Assembly (NCBI RefSeq): GCF_000834655.1
Contig: NZ_JXQQ01000033.1
Location: 62,001 to 126,000, forward strand
Reading direction: 5' to 3'
DNA: 64,000 nt
Source: Variovorax paradoxus
Lineage (GTDB): Bacteria; Pseudomonadota; Gammaproteobacteria; Burkholderiales; Burkholderiaceae_C
Part shown: positions 2,569-24,190 of the stretch, in pieces
Numbering within the stretch: the stretch's first letter is position 1
Layout of the letters: each line of letters begins with the position of its first letter
The notes under the pieces: generated by a model
Seen by the model: only the letters and a program-made list of their open reading frames with translations
Database searches by the model: none
Told to the model about the DNA's origin: nothing
Position numbers and translations under genes: made by a program

Positions 2569-3732
2569 ATGCCCAACACCCCTCCACGGCGATCGCGCAA
2601 GCTCCTTCTCGGTATCGCAGCGCTCGTCGTCCTGGCCGTCATCGCCTTCTTCTGGCTGAGTCCGGCCAAGAAAACCGAATACCTCACCGCCACCGTGCAG
2701 CGCACCGACCTCGAAAACGCTGTGCTGGCCACCGGCGTGCTGCAGGCGCTCAGGCAGGTGGAAGTGGGCGCGCAGGTCAGCGGCCAGCTCAAGTCGCTCA
2801 AGGTGGTGCTGGGGCAAACGGTGAAGAAGGGCGACTGGCTCGCCGAGATCGATCCGGTCATCTCGCAGAACACGCTGGCCCAGGAGCAGGCCAAGCTGGA
2901 GAACCTGCAGGCGCAGAAGCTCGCGAAGGAGGTGCGCGTGAAGCAGGCCGAGCTCACCTGGGCTCGGCAGCGCGAAATGCTTGCGCAGGACGCCGCGCCG
3001 CGACAGGACATGGAAAGCGCCGACGCCGAGTTGCGCGCGCTGCGCGCCGACGGCGTTTCGCTGGACGCGCAGATCCGCCAGCAGAAGCTCGCCATGGCCT
3101 CGGCGCAGACCAATCTTTCGTACACCCGCATCGTCGCGCCCATCGATGGTGACGTGGTTTCCATCAACACGCTCGAGGGCCAGACCGTGGTCGCCGCCTT
3201 CCAGGTACCCACGCTGATGAAGCTGGCCGACCTGTCGACCATGACCGTGAAGGCGCAGGTGTCGGAGGCCGACGTGGTGCGCGTGAAGGCGGGGCAGCCG
3301 GTGTACTTCACCATCCTCGGCGACCCCGACAAGCGCTACCACGGCACGCTGCGCGCGGTGCAGCCCTCGCCCGAGAAGATCAACAACGCGGTGTTCTTCA
3401 ACGCGCTGTTCGACGTGCCGAACCCCGACCGCACGCTGCGCGTCGACATGACGGCGCAGGTGGCCATCCTGCTGGGCGAGGCAAAGCAGGCGCTCACGGT
3501 GCCGCTCACCGCGCTCGGCGCGCGCGACAAGGACGGCCGCCAGGAAGTGCGCGTGCTCAAGCCCGACCAGACGGTTGAAAAGCGGCAGGTGCGCGTGGGC
3601 ATCAGCAACAACTTCCAGGCGCAGGTGCTCGAGGGGCTCAAGGAGGGCGACACCGTCATCACCGGCGATGCCTCGGCGCTCGATCCGGTCAGCAGCGGCG
3701 AAGGCGGCGGCAACAGAGGAAGGCGCCAGTGA
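2569..3732 (+). CDS. macA: MacA-type periplasmic adaptor of a tripartite efflux pump
   Basis: Membrane fusion protein that bridges MacB in the inner membrane and an outer membrane channel. The 387-residue protein has an N-terminal membrane anchor (about residues 14-31), a biotinyl-lipoyl half near 60-90, an alpha-helical coiled-coil hairpin rich in Q, K and L (about 95-180), the second lipoyl half near 190 and beta-barrel domains to the C-terminus, ending in a glycine-rich tail. The ATG at 2569 precedes the anchor directly; a longer frame from 2440 has no signal-like start. No good ribosome binding site is visible. It overlaps macB by four bases. Substrate is unknown. Confidence 0.88.
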   Translation: MPNTPPRRSRKLLLGIAALVVLAVIAFFWLSPAKKTEYLTATVQRTDLENAVLATGVLQALRQVEVGAQVSGQLKSLKVVLGQTVKKGDWLAEIDPVISQNTLAQEQAKLENLQAQKLAKEVRVKQAELTWARQREMLAQDAAPRQDMESADAELRALRADGVSLDAQIRQQKLAMASAQTNLSYTRIVAPIDGDVVSINTLEGQTVVAAFQVPTLMKLADLSTMTVKAQVSEADVVRVKAGQPVYFTILGDPDKRYHGTLRAVQPSPEKINNAVFFNALFDVPNPDRTLRVDMTAQVAILLGEAKQALTVPLTALGARDKDGRQEVRVLKPDQTVEKRQVRVGISNNFQAQVLEGLKEGDTVITGDASALDPVSSGEGGGNRGRRQ

Positions 3733-5711
3733 CGGAGCCGCTGCTGAAGCTGCGCGGCATCGGCCGCAGCTTTCCTTCGGGCGAGCAGGAAGTGCAGGTG
3801 CTCAAGGACGTCGACCTGGACATCGGCAACGGCGAGATGCTGGCCATCGTCGGCGCCTCGGGCTCGGGCAAGTCGACGCTGATGAACATCCTCGGTTGCC
3901 TCGACCGGCCCAGCAGCGGCACCTACACCGTCTCGGGCCACGACGTGGGCACGCTCGACAGCGACGCGCTTGCCCAACTTCGCCGCGAGCACTTCGGCTT
4001 CATCTTCCAGCGCTACCACCTGATGCAGCACCTGACGGCCGCGGGCAATGTCGAGGTGCCTGCCGTGTATGCCGGCACCGAGGGCGTAGCGCGCGATGCG
4101 CGGGCGCGGCAGTTGCTCGCGCGCCTGGGCCTCGCAGACCGTACCGAGCACCGGCCGAGCCAACTCTCGGGCGGCCAGCAGCAGCGCGTGAGCATCGCGC
4201 GCGCGCTGATGAATGGCGGCCAGGTCATCCTGGCCGACGAGCCGACCGGCGCACTGGACAGCAAGAGCGGCCAGGAGGTCATCGGCATCCTGCGCGAACT
4301 GCATGCGCAGGGCCACACGATCATCATCGTGACGCACGACATGCAGGTGGCCAGTTGCACCGAACGCATCATCGAGATCGCCGACGGCGTGATCGTGGGC
4401 GACAGGCCCAATGTGCCGACGATCGCGGCGCCTGCGCAGGCGGTCGGGACCGATGCATCGACACCGCCCCCCATGACCAGGCCCAAGCTCGGCATCGCGA
4501 GCCTGAGCACCGGCTGGGCCCGCTTCGCCGAGGCCTTTCGCATGGCCTGGCGCTCGATGATGGCGCACCGCATGCGCACGGCGCTCACCATGCTGGGCAT
4601 CGTGATCGGCATCACCTCGGTGGTGTCGATCGTGGCCATCGGGGAGGGCGCCAAGCGCTTCGTGCTGGCGGACATCCGCGCCATCGGCACCAACACGCTG
4701 GACGTGTACCCGGGCCGCGACTTCGGCGACGACAAGGCCGCGAGCATCCGCACGCTGACGCCGGCCGACCTGGAGGCGATCGCCGCGCAGCCCTATGTGC
4801 ACAGCGTGACGCCCACCGTCGTGCGCAGCCTGCGCCTGCGCTACCGCAGCGCCGACGTCAACGGCAACGTGAGCGGCGTGAGCGATGCCTTCTTTCGCGT
4901 GCGCGACATCCAGATGACCAGCGGCACGGCCTTCACCGCCGCCGACGTGCGCCACCAGGCGCAGGTGGTGGTGATCGATGCGAACACGCGGCGCAAGCTT
5001 TTCCCGGACGGCACCGACCCGGTCGGCAAGGTCATCCTGGTCGGCAATCTGCCGTGCACGGTGATCGGCGTCTCGCAAGAGAAGAAAGCCATGTTCGGCG
5101 AGAACAAGACGCTCAACATCTGGCTGCCCTACAGCACCGGCGCGAGCCGCCTCTTCGGGCAGCAGCACTTCGACGGCATCACCGTGCGCATCCGCGACGA
5201 CCAGCCGACCAAGGCGGCCGAGGACAGCATCGTGCGGCTGCTTACCCTGCGCCATGGGGCCAAGGACTTCTTCACCTTCAACATGGACAGCATCGTGAAG
5301 ACGGCCGAGCGCACGAGCCAGTCGCTCACGCTGCTGCTGTCGCTGATCGCGGTGATCTCGCTGGTGGTGGGCGGCATCGGGGTGATGAACATCATGCTGG
5401 TGTCGGTGACCGAGCGCACCCGCGAGATCGGCATCCGCATGGCCGTGGGCGCGCGGCAGAGCGACGTGCTGCAGCAGTTCCTGACCGAGGCGGTGCTCGT
5501 GTGCCTGGTCGGCGGCTTCATCGGCGTGCTGCTGTCGTATGGCATCAGCTTTCTGTTTTCGCTCTTCGTGACGCAATGGCAAATGATCTTTTCGATGGGG
5601 GCCGTGGTGTCGGCTTTTCTGTGCGCCTCGCTGATCGGCGTGTTGTTCGGCTACCTGCCGGCGCGCAATGCGGCGCGGCTCGATCCGATCGAGGCGCTGG
5701 CTCGTGAATAG
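3729..5711 (+). CDS. macB: MacB-type export ATPase/permease
   Basis: Inner-membrane ABC protein that with MacA expels macrolides, peptides or other substrates. The 660-residue chain has an N-terminal nucleotide-binding domain (Walker A GASGSGKST at 42-50, LSGGQQQR near 143, DEPTGALD near 166), a linker, then a first membrane helix near 285, a large periplasmic MacB_PCD domain and three C-terminal membrane helices with the FtsX-type core. The start is GTG, inside the macA stop region. Domain order and length are those of MacB. Neighbours supply adaptor and channel, so the pump looks complete. Confidence 0.93.
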   Translation: MTEPLLKLRGIGRSFPSGEQEVQVLKDVDLDIGNGEMLAIVGASGSGKSTLMNILGCLDRPSSGTYTVSGHDVGTLDSDALAQLRREHFGFIFQRYHLMQHLTAAGNVEVPAVYAGTEGVARDARARQLLARLGLADRTEHRPSQLSGGQQQRVSIARALMNGGQVILADEPTGALDSKSGQEVIGILRELHAQGHTIIIVTHDMQVASCTERIIEIADGVIVGDRPNVPTIAAPAQAVGTDASTPPPMTRPKLGIASLSTGWARFAEAFRMAWRSMMAHRMRTALTMLGIVIGITSVVSIVAIGEGAKRFVLADIRAIGTNTLDVYPGRDFGDDKAASIRTLTPADLEAIAAQPYVHSVTPTVVRSLRLRYRSADVNGNVSGVSDAFFRVRDIQMTSGTAFTAADVRHQAQVVVIDANTRRKLFPDGTDPVGKVILVGNLPCTVIGVSQEKKAMFGENKTLNIWLPYSTGASRLFGQQHFDGITVRIRDDQPTKAAEDSIVRLLTLRHGAKDFFTFNMDSIVKTAERTSQSLTLLLSLIAVISLVVGGIGVMNIMLVSVTERTREIGIRMAVGARQSDVLQQFLTEAVLVCLVGGFIGVLLSYGISFLFSLFVTQWQMIFSMGAVVSAFLCASLIGVLFGYLPARNAARLDPIEALARE

Positions 5712-20218: not shown

Positions 20219-21535
20219 ATGAACAAGCCGTTGCCAGCTCCTATCCCAACTCCTTCTTCATCACTTTTTGCACGCCGCACGCTCATTGCGGCCCTTGCTG
20301 CCACCCCCATGCTTCCAGCACTCGCCCAGTTCCGGGTCGAAGTGTCGGGTGTCGGGCTGACGCAATTGCCGATCGCGCTCGTTGCTTTTCGGGGCCAGGA
20401 CGCCGCGCCTCAAAAGATCTCGGACATCGTCCAGGCCGACCTCGAGAGAAGCGGCCAGTTTCGCGGCGTCGATGCCTCGGGCCAGGCTCTGGACGACACG
20501 TCTCGTCCCGACTGGTCGCTGTGGCGCCAGCGCACCGCCGACTCGCTGGTCGGTGGCAGCATCACCCGCCTGGCCGACGGCCGCTTCGATGTGAAGTTCC
20601 GACTGTGGGACGTGGTCAAGGGCCAGGAGCTGGGCTTCCAGAATTACACGGTGCCGCAGGGTGACCTTCGCCTGGTGGCGCACCGCATCGCGGACTTCAT
20701 CTACGAAAAGCTGACCGGTGAAAAGGGCATCTTCTCGACCCGCATCGCCTATGTCACCAAGGGCGGCAGCCGCTATGCGCTGTGGGTCGCCGATGCCGAC
20801 GGCGAGAACGCGCAGGCCGCGCTCGCCAGCTCCGAGCCCATCATCTCGCCTCGCTGGTCGGCCGATGGGCAGCAACTGGCCTATGTGTCGTTCGAGTCGC
20901 GCAAGCCCGTCGTCTACGTGCACAGCGTGTCCAGCGGACAGCGCCGCCAGGTGGCCAATTTCAAGGGCTCCAACAGCGCGCCGGCCTGGGCCCCCGATGG
21001 CGGTTCGCTCGCCGTCACGCTCAGCCGCGACGGCGGCTCGCAACTCTTCACGATCCCGGCGAGCGGAGGCGAACCGCGCCGGCTGACGCAGAGCGCGAGC
21101 ATCGACACCGAGCCCGTGTATTCGGCCGATGGCGGCACCATCTACTTCGTGAGCGACCGCGGCGGCGCGCCCCAGATCTACAAGATGAGCTCCGGCGGCG
21201 GTAGCCCGTCGCGAGTGACCTTCAGCGGCACCTACAACATCTCGCCCGCCATCAGCGGCGACGGCCGGTGGCTGGCGTACATCTCCCGTGTGGGCGGTGC
21301 TTTCAAGCTCCAGGTGATGGAGCTGTCGAGCGGCAATGTCGCGTCGATCACCGACACCACCGCCGACGAGAGCCCGAGCTTTGCGCCGAACAGCAAGCTG
21401 ATCGTCTATGCAACGCACCTGCAAGGCCGCGAAGCGCTCATGACGACCACGCTCGACGGAAAGATCAAGGCGCGGCTAGCCGGACAGGCTGGCGACATCC
21501 GAGAGCCGGACTGGGGACCGTTCCGCAAGCAATGA
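20219..21535 (+). CDS. tolB: Tol-Pal system protein TolB
   Basis: Periplasmic beta-propeller that links TolA and Pal in outer membrane constriction. From ATG 20219 the 438-residue protein has a Tat/Sec-like signal ending near ALA-Q, the N-terminal strand FRVEVSGVG equivalent to the TolA-binding box of E. coli TolB, an alpha/beta domain (KISDIVQADLERSGQF) and six propeller blades with WSADGQQLAYVS and WAPDGGSLAVT repeats. An in-frame GTG at 20165 would only add non-signal residues. tolQRA are not adjacent. The next gene is a second TolB. Confidence 0.95.
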   Translation: MNKPLPAPIPTPSSSLFARRTLIAALAATPMLPALAQFRVEVSGVGLTQLPIALVAFRGQDAAPQKISDIVQADLERSGQFRGVDASGQALDDTSRPDWSLWRQRTADSLVGGSITRLADGRFDVKFRLWDVVKGQELGFQNYTVPQGDLRLVAHRIADFIYEKLTGEKGIFSTRIAYVTKGGSRYALWVADADGENAQAALASSEPIISPRWSADGQQLAYVSFESRKPVVYVHSVSSGQRRQVANFKGSNSAPAWAPDGGSLAVTLSRDGGSQLFTIPASGGEPRRLTQSASIDTEPVYSADGGTIYFVSDRGGAPQIYKMSSGGGSPSRVTFSGTYNISPAISGDGRWLAYISRVGGAFKLQVMELSSGNVASITDTTADESPSFAPNSKLIVYATHLQGREALMTTTLDGKIKARLAGQAGDIREPDWGPFRKQ

Positions 21536-21569
21536 CCCGGACCAGATGCATCCTCAGAGGTTCGAAACG

Positions 21570-22895
21570 TTGAAACGCACGATTTATTCGCTGGTCATCG
21601 TGGCCTTGATCGCCGGTTGCGCGGCGAACACGAAGCCCGATGAACCGGCGGTGCCCGATCGCAGCGGCAGTGCGCGCCCGCAAGACAGCGCCGGCCCCTC
21701 GAAGCCGGCCGCCATCGGCGGGGGCTTGCCGGTCGCGTTCGTCCCCTTCAAGGGGCAGGACGCCTCGTCGCAGAAAATCTCCGACATCGTCCAGGCCGAC
21801 CTGGAACGCAGCGGCCAATTCCGCGGCGTCGATGCGTCGGGCCAGGCGCTGGACGAGGCCTCGCGTCCCGACCTGTCGCTCTGGCGCCAGCGCACAGCCG
21901 GCTCGCTGGTCGTTGGCAGCGTCACTCGGCTGGCCGACGGCCGCTTCGATGTGAAGTTCCGGCTCTGGGACGTGGTGAAGGGCCAGGACCTGGGCGGACA
22001 GAGCTACACCGTGCCGCAGGGCGACCTGCGCCTCGCGTCGCACCGCATCGCCGATTTCGTCTACGAAAAGCTGACCGGCGAGAAGGGCATCTTCTCGACC
22101 CGCATCGCCTACGTCACCAAGGGCGCCAACCGCAACACGCTCTGGGTGGCCGATGCCGACGGCGAGAACGCGCAGGCCGCGCTCGCCAGTCCGGAGCCGA
22201 TCATCTCGCCCACCTGGTCGTCCAGCGGCCAGCAACTGGCCTACGTGTCCTTCGAGTCGCGCAAGCCCGTCGTCTACGTGCACAACGTGACCAGCGGCCA
22301 GCGCCGGCTGCTGGCGAACTTCAGGGGCTCCAACAGCGCACCCGCCTGGGCGCCGGACGGCAATACGCTGGCCGTCACGCTCAGCCGCGACGGCGGCTCG
22401 CAGCTCTATACGGTGCCGGCGAACGGTGGCGAACCGCGTCGGCTGACGCAGAGCGCGAGCATCGACACCGAGCCCGCGTACTCGGCCGATGGCCGCACCA
22501 TCTATTTCGTGAGCGACCGCGGCGGCTCGCCCCAGATCTACAAGATGAATGCGAGCGGCGGCAACCCGACCCGGGTTACGACGAGCGGCACCTACAACAT
22601 TTCTCCGTCCGTCAGCGGCGATGGCCGGTGGTTGGCCTACATCGCGCGCGTGGACACTGCCTTCAAACTCCAGGTGATGGAGTTGGCGACCGGCAAAGTT
22701 GCGTCCATCACCGACACCACTGCCGACGAGAGCCCAAGTTTTGCCCCAAATAGCAAGCTGATCGTCTACGCAACGCGTCTTCAAGACCGCGAAGCGCTCA
22801 TGACGACCACGCTCGACGGAAAAATAAAGGCACGACTGGCGGGACAGGCGGGAGACATCAGGGAACCGGACTGGGGTCCGTTTCAAAAGCAATGA
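21570..22895 (+). CDS. Second TolB with a Pal-type lipoprotein leader
   Basis: Tandem TolB copy, 441 residues from TTG 21570. From LPVAFVPF onward it matches TolB with about 56 differences in 389 aligned residues (about 86 percent identity by eye). Before that, its first 35-50 residues match Pal instead: KRTIYSLVIVALIAGC with a lipobox, then a linker with TKPDEPAVPDRSGSA resembling TKLNDTPVTDGRGSA of Pal. The TolA-binding strand of TolB is absent. Residue +2 after the Cys is Ala, so outer membrane sorting is expected. The codon equal to the pal ATG is ACG here; AGAGG lies nine bases before the TTG. ATG 21546 is an in-frame alternative. Probably functional, not a pseudogene, as the frame is open throughout. 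Confidence 0.9.
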   Translation: MKRTIYSLVIVALIAGCAANTKPDEPAVPDRSGSARPQDSAGPSKPAAIGGGLPVAFVPFKGQDASSQKISDIVQADLERSGQFRGVDASGQALDEASRPDLSLWRQRTAGSLVVGSVTRLADGRFDVKFRLWDVVKGQDLGGQSYTVPQGDLRLASHRIADFVYEKLTGEKGIFSTRIAYVTKGANRNTLWVADADGENAQAALASPEPIISPTWSSSGQQLAYVSFESRKPVVYVHNVTSGQRRLLANFRGSNSAPAWAPDGNTLAVTLSRDGGSQLYTVPANGGEPRRLTQSASIDTEPAYSADGRTIYFVSDRGGSPQIYKMNASGGNPTRVTTSGTYNISPSVSGDGRWLAYIARVDTAFKLQVMELATGKVASITDTTADESPSFAPNSKLIVYATRLQDREALMTTTLDGKIKARLAGQAGDIREPDWGPFQKQ

Positions 22896-22919
22896 TTAGG
22901 TTTATTTGAGGAGTTTGAA

Positions 22920-23441
22920 ATGTTGAAACGCACAATTTATTCGCTGGCCATCGTGGCCCTCATCGCCGGTTGCTCGTCGGGCACCAAGCTCAACGACACG
23001 CCGGTGACCGACGGCCGCGGCTCGGCAGGCCAGCAGGGCGGCAGCGCAAGCGCCGTGACGCCGGTCAACGCCGACCCGAACGCAGGCACGGCGCAAGGCC
23101 CGGTGGGCGTTGCGCGCATCGTGTACTTCGACTACGACAGCTACACGGTCAAGCCCGAGTTCCAGTCGATCATCGACGGCCACGCGCGCTTCCTGAAGAG
23201 CGCTCCCCAGCGCCGCATCTCGATCGAAGGTCATACCGACGAGCGCGGTGGCCGTGAGTACAACCTGGCCCTCGGCCAGAAGCGCTCCGAAGCCGTCCGT
23301 CGTGCACTGACCCTCCTGGGCGTGAGCGACAGCCAGATCGAAGCCGTGAGCTTCGGCAAGGAAAAGCCGGCGGTCCAGGGCTCCGGCGAAGAGGCGTGGG
23401 CGCAGAACCGTCGCGCTGAAATCCGCTACACCACCCGGTGA
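22920..23441 (+). CDS. pal: Peptidoglycan-associated lipoprotein Pal
   Basis: Outer membrane lipoprotein that binds peptidoglycan and TolB. 173 residues: lipoprotein signal LAIVALIAGC, a low-complexity linker to about 65, then an OmpA-like domain with YFDYDSYTVKPEF and the peptidoglycan-binding motif ISIEGHTDERGGREYNLALG and RRAEIRY at the end. GAGGAG lies ten bases before the ATG. Its leader and linker are the evident source of the N-terminus of the preceding TolB-like gene. cpoB begins inside its stop. Confidence 0.97.
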   Translation: MLKRTIYSLAIVALIAGCSSGTKLNDTPVTDGRGSAGQQGGSASAVTPVNADPNAGTAQGPVGVARIVYFDYDSYTVKPEFQSIIDGHARFLKSAPQRRISIEGHTDERGGREYNLALGQKRSEAVRRALTLLGVSDSQIEAVSFGKEKPAVQGSGEEAWAQNRRAEIRYTTR

Positions 23442-24190
23442 TGCCACGCGTCCTGTTGCGGGGCGCGGCGCTGGCTGCCGCCCTGCTGTGCGTCTCGATG
23501 GGATCGCAGGCCGCGTTGTTCGAGGATGACGAGGCCCGCAAGGCCATTCTCGATCTGCGCCAGCGCGTCGAGGCGATGCGCCAGCAAACCGATCAGCGCC
23601 TGACCGACGAGAACGGCCAGTTGCGCCGCAGCCTGCTCGACCTGCAGAACCAGATCGAGCAGATGCGGGGCGACCTGGCGCGCATGACCGGCCAGAACGA
23701 ACAGCTCACGCGCACGCTGAGCGAAATGCAGTCGCGCCAGAGCACCCTCGACGACAAGCTCAAGCAGAGCGAGCCGTCCAAGGTGACTGTCGACGGCCGC
23801 GAGTTCAACGCCGATCCCAAGGAAAAGGCCGACTTCGAAGCTGCCCTCGGCATCTTCCGTGCCGGCCAGTTCGCGCAGTCGCAAACCGCCTTCGCCGAAT
23901 TCGTCAAGCGCTACCCGCAAAGCGGCTACAACGCCTCGGCGCTGTTCTGGCTTGGCAATGCGCAGTACGCCACGCGCAATTACAACGAGGCCATCGCGAA
24001 CTTCCGCTCGATGCTCTCGCTCGCACCCGACCACGCCAAGGCGCCCGAGGCCGTGCTGTCGATCGCGAACTGCCAGATCGAGCTGAAGGACACGCGTTCG
24101 GCACGCCGCACGCTGGAAGACCTGGCCAAGGCCTATCCGCAGTCCGAAGCCGCACAGGCGGGCCGAGAGCGTCTCTCGCGCCTGCGCTGA
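23441..24190 (+). CDS. cpoB: Cell division coordinator CpoB (YbgF)
   Basis: Periplasmic protein that ties Tol-Pal function to peptidoglycan synthesis at the septum. 249 residues: a signal peptide ending near SQA, a coiled-coil trimerisation helix (about 30-115, heptads rich in L, Q and R), then TPR-like repeats (FEAALGIFRAGQFAQSQTAF, ASALFWLGNAQYATRNYNEA). The ATG overlaps the pal stop (TGATG); a GTG one codon upstream is possible. Standard partner of pal. Confidence 0.94.
   Translation: MPRVLLRGAALAAALLCVSMGSQAALFEDDEARKAILDLRQRVEAMRQQTDQRLTDENGQLRRSLLDLQNQIEQMRGDLARMTGQNEQLTRTLSEMQSRQSTLDDKLKQSEPSKVTVDGREFNADPKEKADFEAALGIFRAGQFAQSQTAFAEFVKRYPQSGYNASALFWLGNAQYATRNYNEAIANFRSMLSLAPDHAKAPEAVLSIANCQIELKDTRSARRTLEDLAKAYPQSEAAQAGRERLSRLR

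Follow-up and report, generated by a model that had tools for sequence, protein, structure and literature searches.

In Variovorax paradoxus, a second tolB gene carrying the lipoprotein leader of pal lies between a canonical tolB and pal. We propose, with a probability of roughly 0.45, that its product, TolB2, is an outer-membrane-tethered Pal partner to which TolA would be blind, created by a tandem duplication that placed a TolB body behind the lipoprotein signal of Pal. In the 64,000-nt stretch of DNA analyzed (the window), which comes from a 6.9-Mb genome, the gene order is msbA (reverse strand), tolB1, tolB2, pal, cpoB, and a thiF-like gene, the msbA and thiF-like labels having been assigned from translations.

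A TolB body behind a Pal-type leader

TolB1 and TolB2 both exceeded the curated TIGR02800 cutoff of 343.15 bits, and both matched PF04052 and PD40 in a Pfam scan (Table 1). Their bodies were identical at 333 of 389 residues (85.6%), in agreement with the figure of about 86% in the original prediction. TolB1 has its own cleavable-type, RR-containing signal and has the TolA-binding strand. The Pfam and NCBIfam scans matched TolB2 to no OmpA-type peptidoglycan-binding domain. Judged from its sequence, TolB2 is a TolB by descent without the TolA-binding strand. The best of five AlphaFold2 models of TolB2 had a mean pLDDT of 80.5 over 441 residues (the others ranged from 63.5 to 78.1), and its 19 best Foldseek matches were TolB structures, both free and Pal bound. 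In this model, TolB2 keeps the N-terminal alpha/beta domain and the six-bladed propeller of an intact TolB fold; residues 1 to 50 had pLDDT values below 50.

Table 1. Features of the tolB1-tolB2-pal region in window coordinates
Feature	Position	Strand	Evidence or remark
tolB1, canonical TolB	20219..21535	+	TIGR02800 480.1 bits; sits where relatives have their single-copy tolB
QFRVEVSGVG, TolB1 residues 37-46, holds the TolA-binding strand	20327..20356	+	Alignment to E. coli TolB
Tandem unit copy 1 (tolB body, gap, Pal-type leader), ~1.36 kb, ends approximate	20366..21620	+	Offsets 1360/1353 nt
Possible TolB2 N-terminal extension	21546..21569	+	Starts at an in-frame ATG; the AGAGG within it may serve TTG 21570 as a ribosome site
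tolB2, TolB body with Pal leader, predicted outer-membrane lipoprotein	21570..22895	+	TIGR02800 468.8 bits
TolB2 signal peptide and lipobox LIAG-C, Pal derived	21570..21620	+	47/51 nt the same as the pal leader
TolB2 linker, residues 18-52	21621..21725	+	Pal-linker-like over about the first 22 residues; predicted disordered
tolB2 region with PF04052 and PD40	21726..22892	+	TolB fold in AlphaFold2 model
Tandem unit copy 2 (tolB2 body, gap, pal leader), ends approximate	21726..22973	+	Alignment to copy 1
pal, intact, OmpA domain	22920..23441	+	TIGR02802 141.6 bits (cutoff 125.35); PF00691
cpoB/ybgF	23438..24190	+	TIGR02795 113.8 bits (cutoff 90.1)

It had been predicted that the N terminus of TolB2 matches Pal in its signal, lipobox cysteine, and linker, and the nucleotide comparison bore this out. 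The 17 leader codons agreed with those of pal at 47 of 51 nt, and the next best ungapped 51-nt match to the leader, with both strands of the rest of the window compared, reached 29 of 51, so that a chance likeness is excluded. TolB2 begins with MKRTIYSLVIVALIAG-C and Pal with MLKRTIYSLAIVALIAG-C. The lipobox LIAG-C was identical in the TolB2 proteins of the window and of the two other species that carry the tandem, IB41 and 770b2. Residue +2 after the lipobox cysteine was Ala in all three, i.e., not Asp, the residue that serves as the criterion at this position in Lol sorting of outer-membrane lipoproteins. We judge that TolB2 carries a Pal-type lipobox signal and not a soluble-type cleavable signal.

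Most of the aligned TolB signal peptides, from window positions 20219 to 20326 and from relatives, contain an RR motif (such as ARRTLIAA) and resemble Tat signals. If this motif is a Tat signal, TolB2 would have switched its export route besides gaining a lipid anchor.

The position that corresponds to the pal ATG is ACG or ACA in tolB2, which leaves either TTG 21570 or the in-frame ATG at 21546 as the start codon. The gene boundaries of the original prediction, 21570 to 22895, are correct given the TTG, which would be a weak start. Each of the three tandem genomes has the upstream ATG. By eye, three sites vary among these genomes between this ATG and the TTG, all at third codon positions; translation of tolB2 may begin at this ATG instead. 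The lipobox is intact under both candidate starts.

Residues 38 to 46 of TolB1 (FRVEVSGVG) align with residues 23 to 32 of E. coli TolB (numbered as in chain 7nst), whereas the alignment of TolB2 begins only at E. coli residue 30. This implies that, as had been predicted, the TolA-binding strand is gone from TolB2, with the linker in its place. The QFRVEVSGVG pattern was present in 126 of the 127 loci tested in Variovorax and related bacteria: once per locus in all 80 loci of one set (L053 to L132) and in 46 of 47 others, the single miss being L051. The two sets overlap, some genomes being in both. Two tandem loci fell in the set of 80 and had the pattern once each, as expected if TolB1 alone carries it.

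According to the available parts of a study of E. coli TolB (PMC7066135), the propeller binds Pal and the N-terminal strand binds TolA, TolB and peptidoglycan are mutually exclusive for Pal binding, and deletion of residues 22 to 33 abolishes the septal buildup of Pal; this deletion also inhibits TolA binding (PMC7391070, available parts). In the steered simulations of the former study, parting TolB from Pal took more force with the strand in place, and the strandless TolB2 may therefore grip Pal less.

In the accessible text of two E. coli studies, H146, D150, and T165 form the interdomain network of TolB (PMC7066135), and M203, F219, H245, L268, T291, T305, S306, D307, and P312 lie in the canyon, where colicin A contacts or buries them (PMC2821528). 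At the 12 E. coli TolB positions that we mapped, TolB1, TolB2, and the single-copy TolB of ZS18.2.2 had the same residue as one another. All three proteins have Ser in place of H245 and L268, and the contact map of E. coli TolB is therefore only partly transferable. Changing H246 or T292 is described as stopping Pal binding (PMC7066135, in the part available), and we read these residues as H245 and T291 in the numbering of PMC2821528, likewise available in part; only the Thr of this pair is kept in TolB2, and equally in TolB1. From these residues, TolB2 may still bind Pal.

With 24 single-copy TolB proteins of the family as the reference and TolB2 numbering, residues seen in none of the 24 occupied 8 sites in TolB1 and 12 in TolB2. 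Those of TolB1 were E96D, L102W, D140E, G143F, and S145N in the first domain and P208S, L247K/Q, and Q439R later on. Those of TolB2 were I55V, P67S, D111G, Y189N, I282V, F338T/V, S359A, G362D, G363S/T, and G406D, with two further changes at the more variable sites 327 and 376. Nine of the 12 TolB2 sites lie in the propeller (residue 172 onward), and with such TolB2-only residues there (positions 338, 359, 363, and 406 among others), Pal binding could be altered. Compared with two sister species, fixed differences numbered 11 in the N-terminal domain and 11 in the propeller for TolB1 and 3 and 14, respectively, for TolB2, a weak domain bias (Fisher p 0.049) in a comparison that was chosen after the alignment had been viewed.

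Origin, distribution, and age of the tandem

The tolB2 body lies 1360 nt after the tolB1 body, and the pal leader lies 1353 nt after the tolB2 leader. These near-equal offsets fit one tandem duplication with its ends inside tolB and the pal linker, the duplicated unit extending from near codon 48 of tolB to near codon 42 of pal (end points estimated from the alignment). A single tandem duplication of a unit of ~1.36 kb would most simply explain the layout, without an extra deletion. In the original prediction, tolB-pal was duplicated in tandem, and a deletion then ran from the first pal into the second tolB. The tolB-pal rearrangement stands, whereas the deletion is needless given the offsets, and the two-step route is less simple than one duplication.

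Of 101 Variovorax genomes searched, three had the layout of tolB, a lipobox-bearing tolB, and pal: that of the window, Variovorax sp. IB41, and Variovorax sp. 770b2. Over their full length, the TolB2 proteins of the latter two were 95.7% and 93.0% identical, respectively, to that of the window, and tolB2 adjoins pal in all three species. A TolB_N match was present in 98 of the 101 genomes, the three without one being 69 to 89% complete; two matches occurred in four, namely, the three tandem genomes and G049, whose second match is a distant chimera on another contig. An assembly or annotation artifact, for which relatives had been put forward as a test, is practically excluded: the layout recurs in two further independent assemblies, the contigs that contain it in the three genomes measure 149 kb, 1.39 Mb, and 3.36 Mb, the sequences are orthologous and not identical, and nothing in the three tandem assemblies was found to favor it.

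The search for further fusions that had been suggested yielded two more genomes within Variovorax and no adjacent pair of full TolB_N matches in the 394 family genomes outside the genus. The family search covered 399 genomes, one per species and 5 of them from the genus; a TolB_N match was present in 383 and absent from 16. Two matches occurred in the window's genome and IB41 within the genus and in 26 genomes outside it, all of which we rechecked. Twenty-four of the 26 had one full match and a weaker match elsewhere, at most 48.7 bits (the best in G231 and G135); G461 (78% complete) had two full matches on separate contigs, and the two matches of G103 were overlapping pieces of a single frame-broken gene. 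In a phylum sample, the TolB model matched 198 of 200 genomes. Among the 110 best-scoring N termini of this sample, 109 were readable (L145 was not), and no TolB2-like lipidated TolB was found among them by eye. A loose lipobox pattern flagged 13 N termini, one of which (L153) had been misread and was unflagged on rereading; by eye, each flagged pattern was either part of an ordinary signal peptide or located far upstream, the least clear cases being L181 and L197. Across all the genomes searched, we met the fusion only in a single small clade of Variovorax.

In a tree of msbA, pal, cpoB, and thiF, the three tandem species formed one clade (support, 97/96) beside five single-copy relatives (85/77). 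With other taxa, the support for the tandem clade was 82/51 (msbA, cpoB, and thiF) or 85/79 (pal alone). The stems of the TolB bodies were 0.096 (TolB1) and 0.055 (TolB2) changes per site, compared with a species stem of 0.0084 on the flanking genes. Within one genome, TolB1 and TolB2 differed by a dS of 0.37 to 0.50; between the tandem species and two sisters, dS was 0.22 to 0.27 for msbA and 0.13 to 0.25 for cpoB. Since dS is raised and the stems are long, stem length is perhaps partly a matter of age, not speed. In relative-rate tests, TolB1 and TolB2 behaved alike at the protein level (six comparisons; highest chi-square, 1.53). At the DNA level, 2 of 6 comparisons exceeded 3.84, as did 1 of 6 at third positions (7.02), with TolB1 the faster copy.

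Within the clade, the synonymous divergence of TolB2 was 0.13 to 0.21, and dN/dS was 0.07 to 0.08 for TolB1 and 0.05 to 0.20 for TolB2, the highest values (0.14 to 0.20) coming from comparisons with the TolB2 of 770b2. The corresponding ratios were 0.16 to 0.23 between TolB1 and TolB2 of one genome and 0.034 between the single-copy TolB proteins of two sisters. These ratios indicate that TolB1 and TolB2 have diverged strongly and are under purifying selection within the clade, looser than that on single-copy TolB. Tandem copies are easily lost by simple recombination; that three species have kept this one suggests that it is useful.

The synteny and age of the fusion had been named as a check; as to synteny, the layout is shared by three species. 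In DNA trees, TolB2 grouped with the sisters and TolB1 fell outside, but a single clade of TolB1 and TolB2 was not rejected (AU p 0.458). The duplication possibly took place on the stem of the clade, with fast change, or was possibly an older event, lost afterward in the sisters through collapse; the import of one tolB copy is a further possibility.

The last ~97 nt of tolB2 (window positions 22796 to 22892) were 100% identical among the tandem species; identity to ZS18.2.2 was 99% there but only 84 to 86% at the 3' end of tolB1. A role of the tolB2 3' end as a control element for pal was not supported: 20 single-copy genes showed no dip in fourfold-site diversity there (0.29 in the last block, versus 0.25 to 0.39 elsewhere).

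Several other TolA- or TolB-like genes came to light in the genus. G049 has an orphan TolB-TolA-like chimera between metabolic genes (locus L035, positions 3349 to 4575, minus strand) with a lipobox-like signal, LLGC. It matched PF04052 at 34.5 bits, has a short TolB-like propeller stretch, scored slightly below the cutoff for PF06519, and ends in a TonB/TolA-type PF13103 domain (52.3 bits). In other Variovorax genomes, orphan frames of ~250 to 300 residues (L281, L282, L285, and L286, i.e., four of the seven such places fetched, read by eye) combine a lipobox-like signal with two TolA-C-terminal-like domains. From their sequences, such proteins are possibly outer-membrane decoys of TolA. The TolA C terminus itself occurs as two clearly different alleles (L251 to L255 versus L256 to L280). 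The rarer one was found in 5 of the best-scoring 30 of 98 TolA-matching genomes, namely, the three tandem genomes, G049, and G062, a spread that suggests exchange between species. Coevolution of the tandem tolB with TolA, apparent when the tandem species were compared with two sisters, is retained as a lead and not as evidence, as the special TolA C terminus is also present in G049 and G062 and so is not specific to the tandem.

Possible roles of TolB2 in the Tol-Pal system

We found no description of a lipidated, second, or duplicated TolB among the papers listed in the open-access literature searched, mostly by title, which agrees with the earlier statement that no lipidated TolB has been described. 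Among the titles listed in this literature, none was relevant to Variovorax TolB and Tol-Pal, to Tol-Pal gene duplication, or to a TolB decoy. Myxococcus has TolB-like motility proteins. The available part of another study (PMC12204202) treats the TolB-like proteins of Thermotogae and OMP-TolB-like proteins, in which a TolB-like periplasmic domain is tied to the outer membrane, as is predicted for TolB2; those proteins are outer-membrane barrels and a proposed source of TolB, whereas TolB2 is a Pal-leader fusion of a true TolB, present in a single genus.

TolB2 shares with TolB (TIGR02800; E. coli structures 1C5K, 2HQS, and 2W8B) its domain order, propeller, place beside pal, interdomain residues, and most mapped canyon residues; it differs in its lipoprotein signal, in having no TolA strand, and in being a second operon copy. 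With Pal (TIGR02802), it shares the 17-codon signal, the lipobox, and the start of the linker, but it has no OmpA/peptidoglycan-binding domain and its linker has ~35 residues, compared with ~50 in Pal. E. coli TolB lacking residues 22 to 33 reportedly remains soluble. As far as the accessible text describes it (PMC7066135), this laboratory mutant is without the TolA strand, like TolB2; it replaces the native TolB, whereas TolB2 is predicted to be membrane anchored and coexists with an intact TolB1.

We propose that TolB2 would be exported via the Pal route, lipidated at Cys17, and, with Ala at +2, taken to the outer membrane, where its propeller would bind Pal as that of TolB1 does. TolA would be unable to grip it. 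Part of the Pal would be kept off peptidoglycan and mobile in the plane of the membrane, and Pal on TolB2 would not be pulled off by the proton-motive-force machinery; TolB2 might also tune the amount of wall-bound Pal as an alternative to keeping a mobile Pal pool. TolB1 would stay the TolA-driven, recycling TolB, the work being split between TolB1 for force coupling and TolB2 as a resident holder or buffer of Pal. An intact TolA is encoded elsewhere in the genome and was found in all five genomes searched, including the three tandem ones. A more far-reaching version, which we regard as doubtful, would make TolB2 a natural, selected separation-of-function TolB with a second, force-independent mobile Pal pool, its origin having driven the specialization of TolB1 as well; L102W, D140E, G143F, and S145N, in the TolA-facing domain, would be the sites of that specialization.

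It is unlikely, in our view, that TolB2 acts as a decoy whose propeller canyon, displayed at the outer membrane, baits the TolB-binding segments of bacteriocins or phages, so that import would stall for want of a TolA grip and the cell would be protected. We know of no bacteriocin or phage that acts via TolB in Variovorax, which counts against such a role, and a decoy that bound Pal too would disturb Pal. Group A colicins do use the Pal-binding canyon (PMC2821528 and PMC7391070, in the parts available), the mapped canyon residues are the same in TolB2 and TolB1, and both TolB copies have long stems. Outside pressure on Tol is hinted at by the two TolA C-terminal alleles in the genus and by the lipobox-like signals, read by eye, at four of the seven fetched TolA-C-terminal-like places. 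The link to the TolA allele is not independent, however, as the three tandem species belong to a single clade and, of the five genomes in which the allele was found, two have no tandem tolB. We rate a Pal holder above a decoy because tolB2 stays beside pal and its mapped canyon residues are as in TolB1.

The 12 sites at which TolB2 has residues seen in none of the 24 single-copy proteins, most of them in the propeller, would suit a scaffold that mainly holds envelope proteins other than Pal at the outer membrane; we think this quite improbable, given that the mapped canyon positions are as in TolB1 and that tolB2 adjoins pal in every species that has it. Nor do we give much weight to a near-neutral by-product, i.e., a tolerated duplication with little expression or effect. 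The rarity of the tandem in the genus (3/101), the possibly weak TTG start, and the looser constraint than on single-copy TolB, most of all in 770b2, fit such an origin, but an open frame, a lipobox, and a dN/dS well below 1 have been kept in three species across a TolB2 synonymous divergence of 0.13 to 0.21, and the easy loss by recombination has not occurred in any of the three.

As a tethered Pal partner, TolB2 would bear on a step of the Tol-Pal mechanism, the TolA- and proton-motive-force-driven parting of TolB from Pal, that is still partly a model; in the available text of PMC7066135, force-driven dissociation in vivo is described as yet to be demonstrated. Predicted to be fixed in the outer membrane without a handle for TolA, TolB2 would be a ready-made test of this mechanism: beside a normal TolB, the same cell would have one in which the binding of Pal is separated from force coupling. 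The fusion is also a clear case of a duplication that makes a new protein through a swap of export signals, a swap that most likely changed the compartment and the role of TolB2 together.
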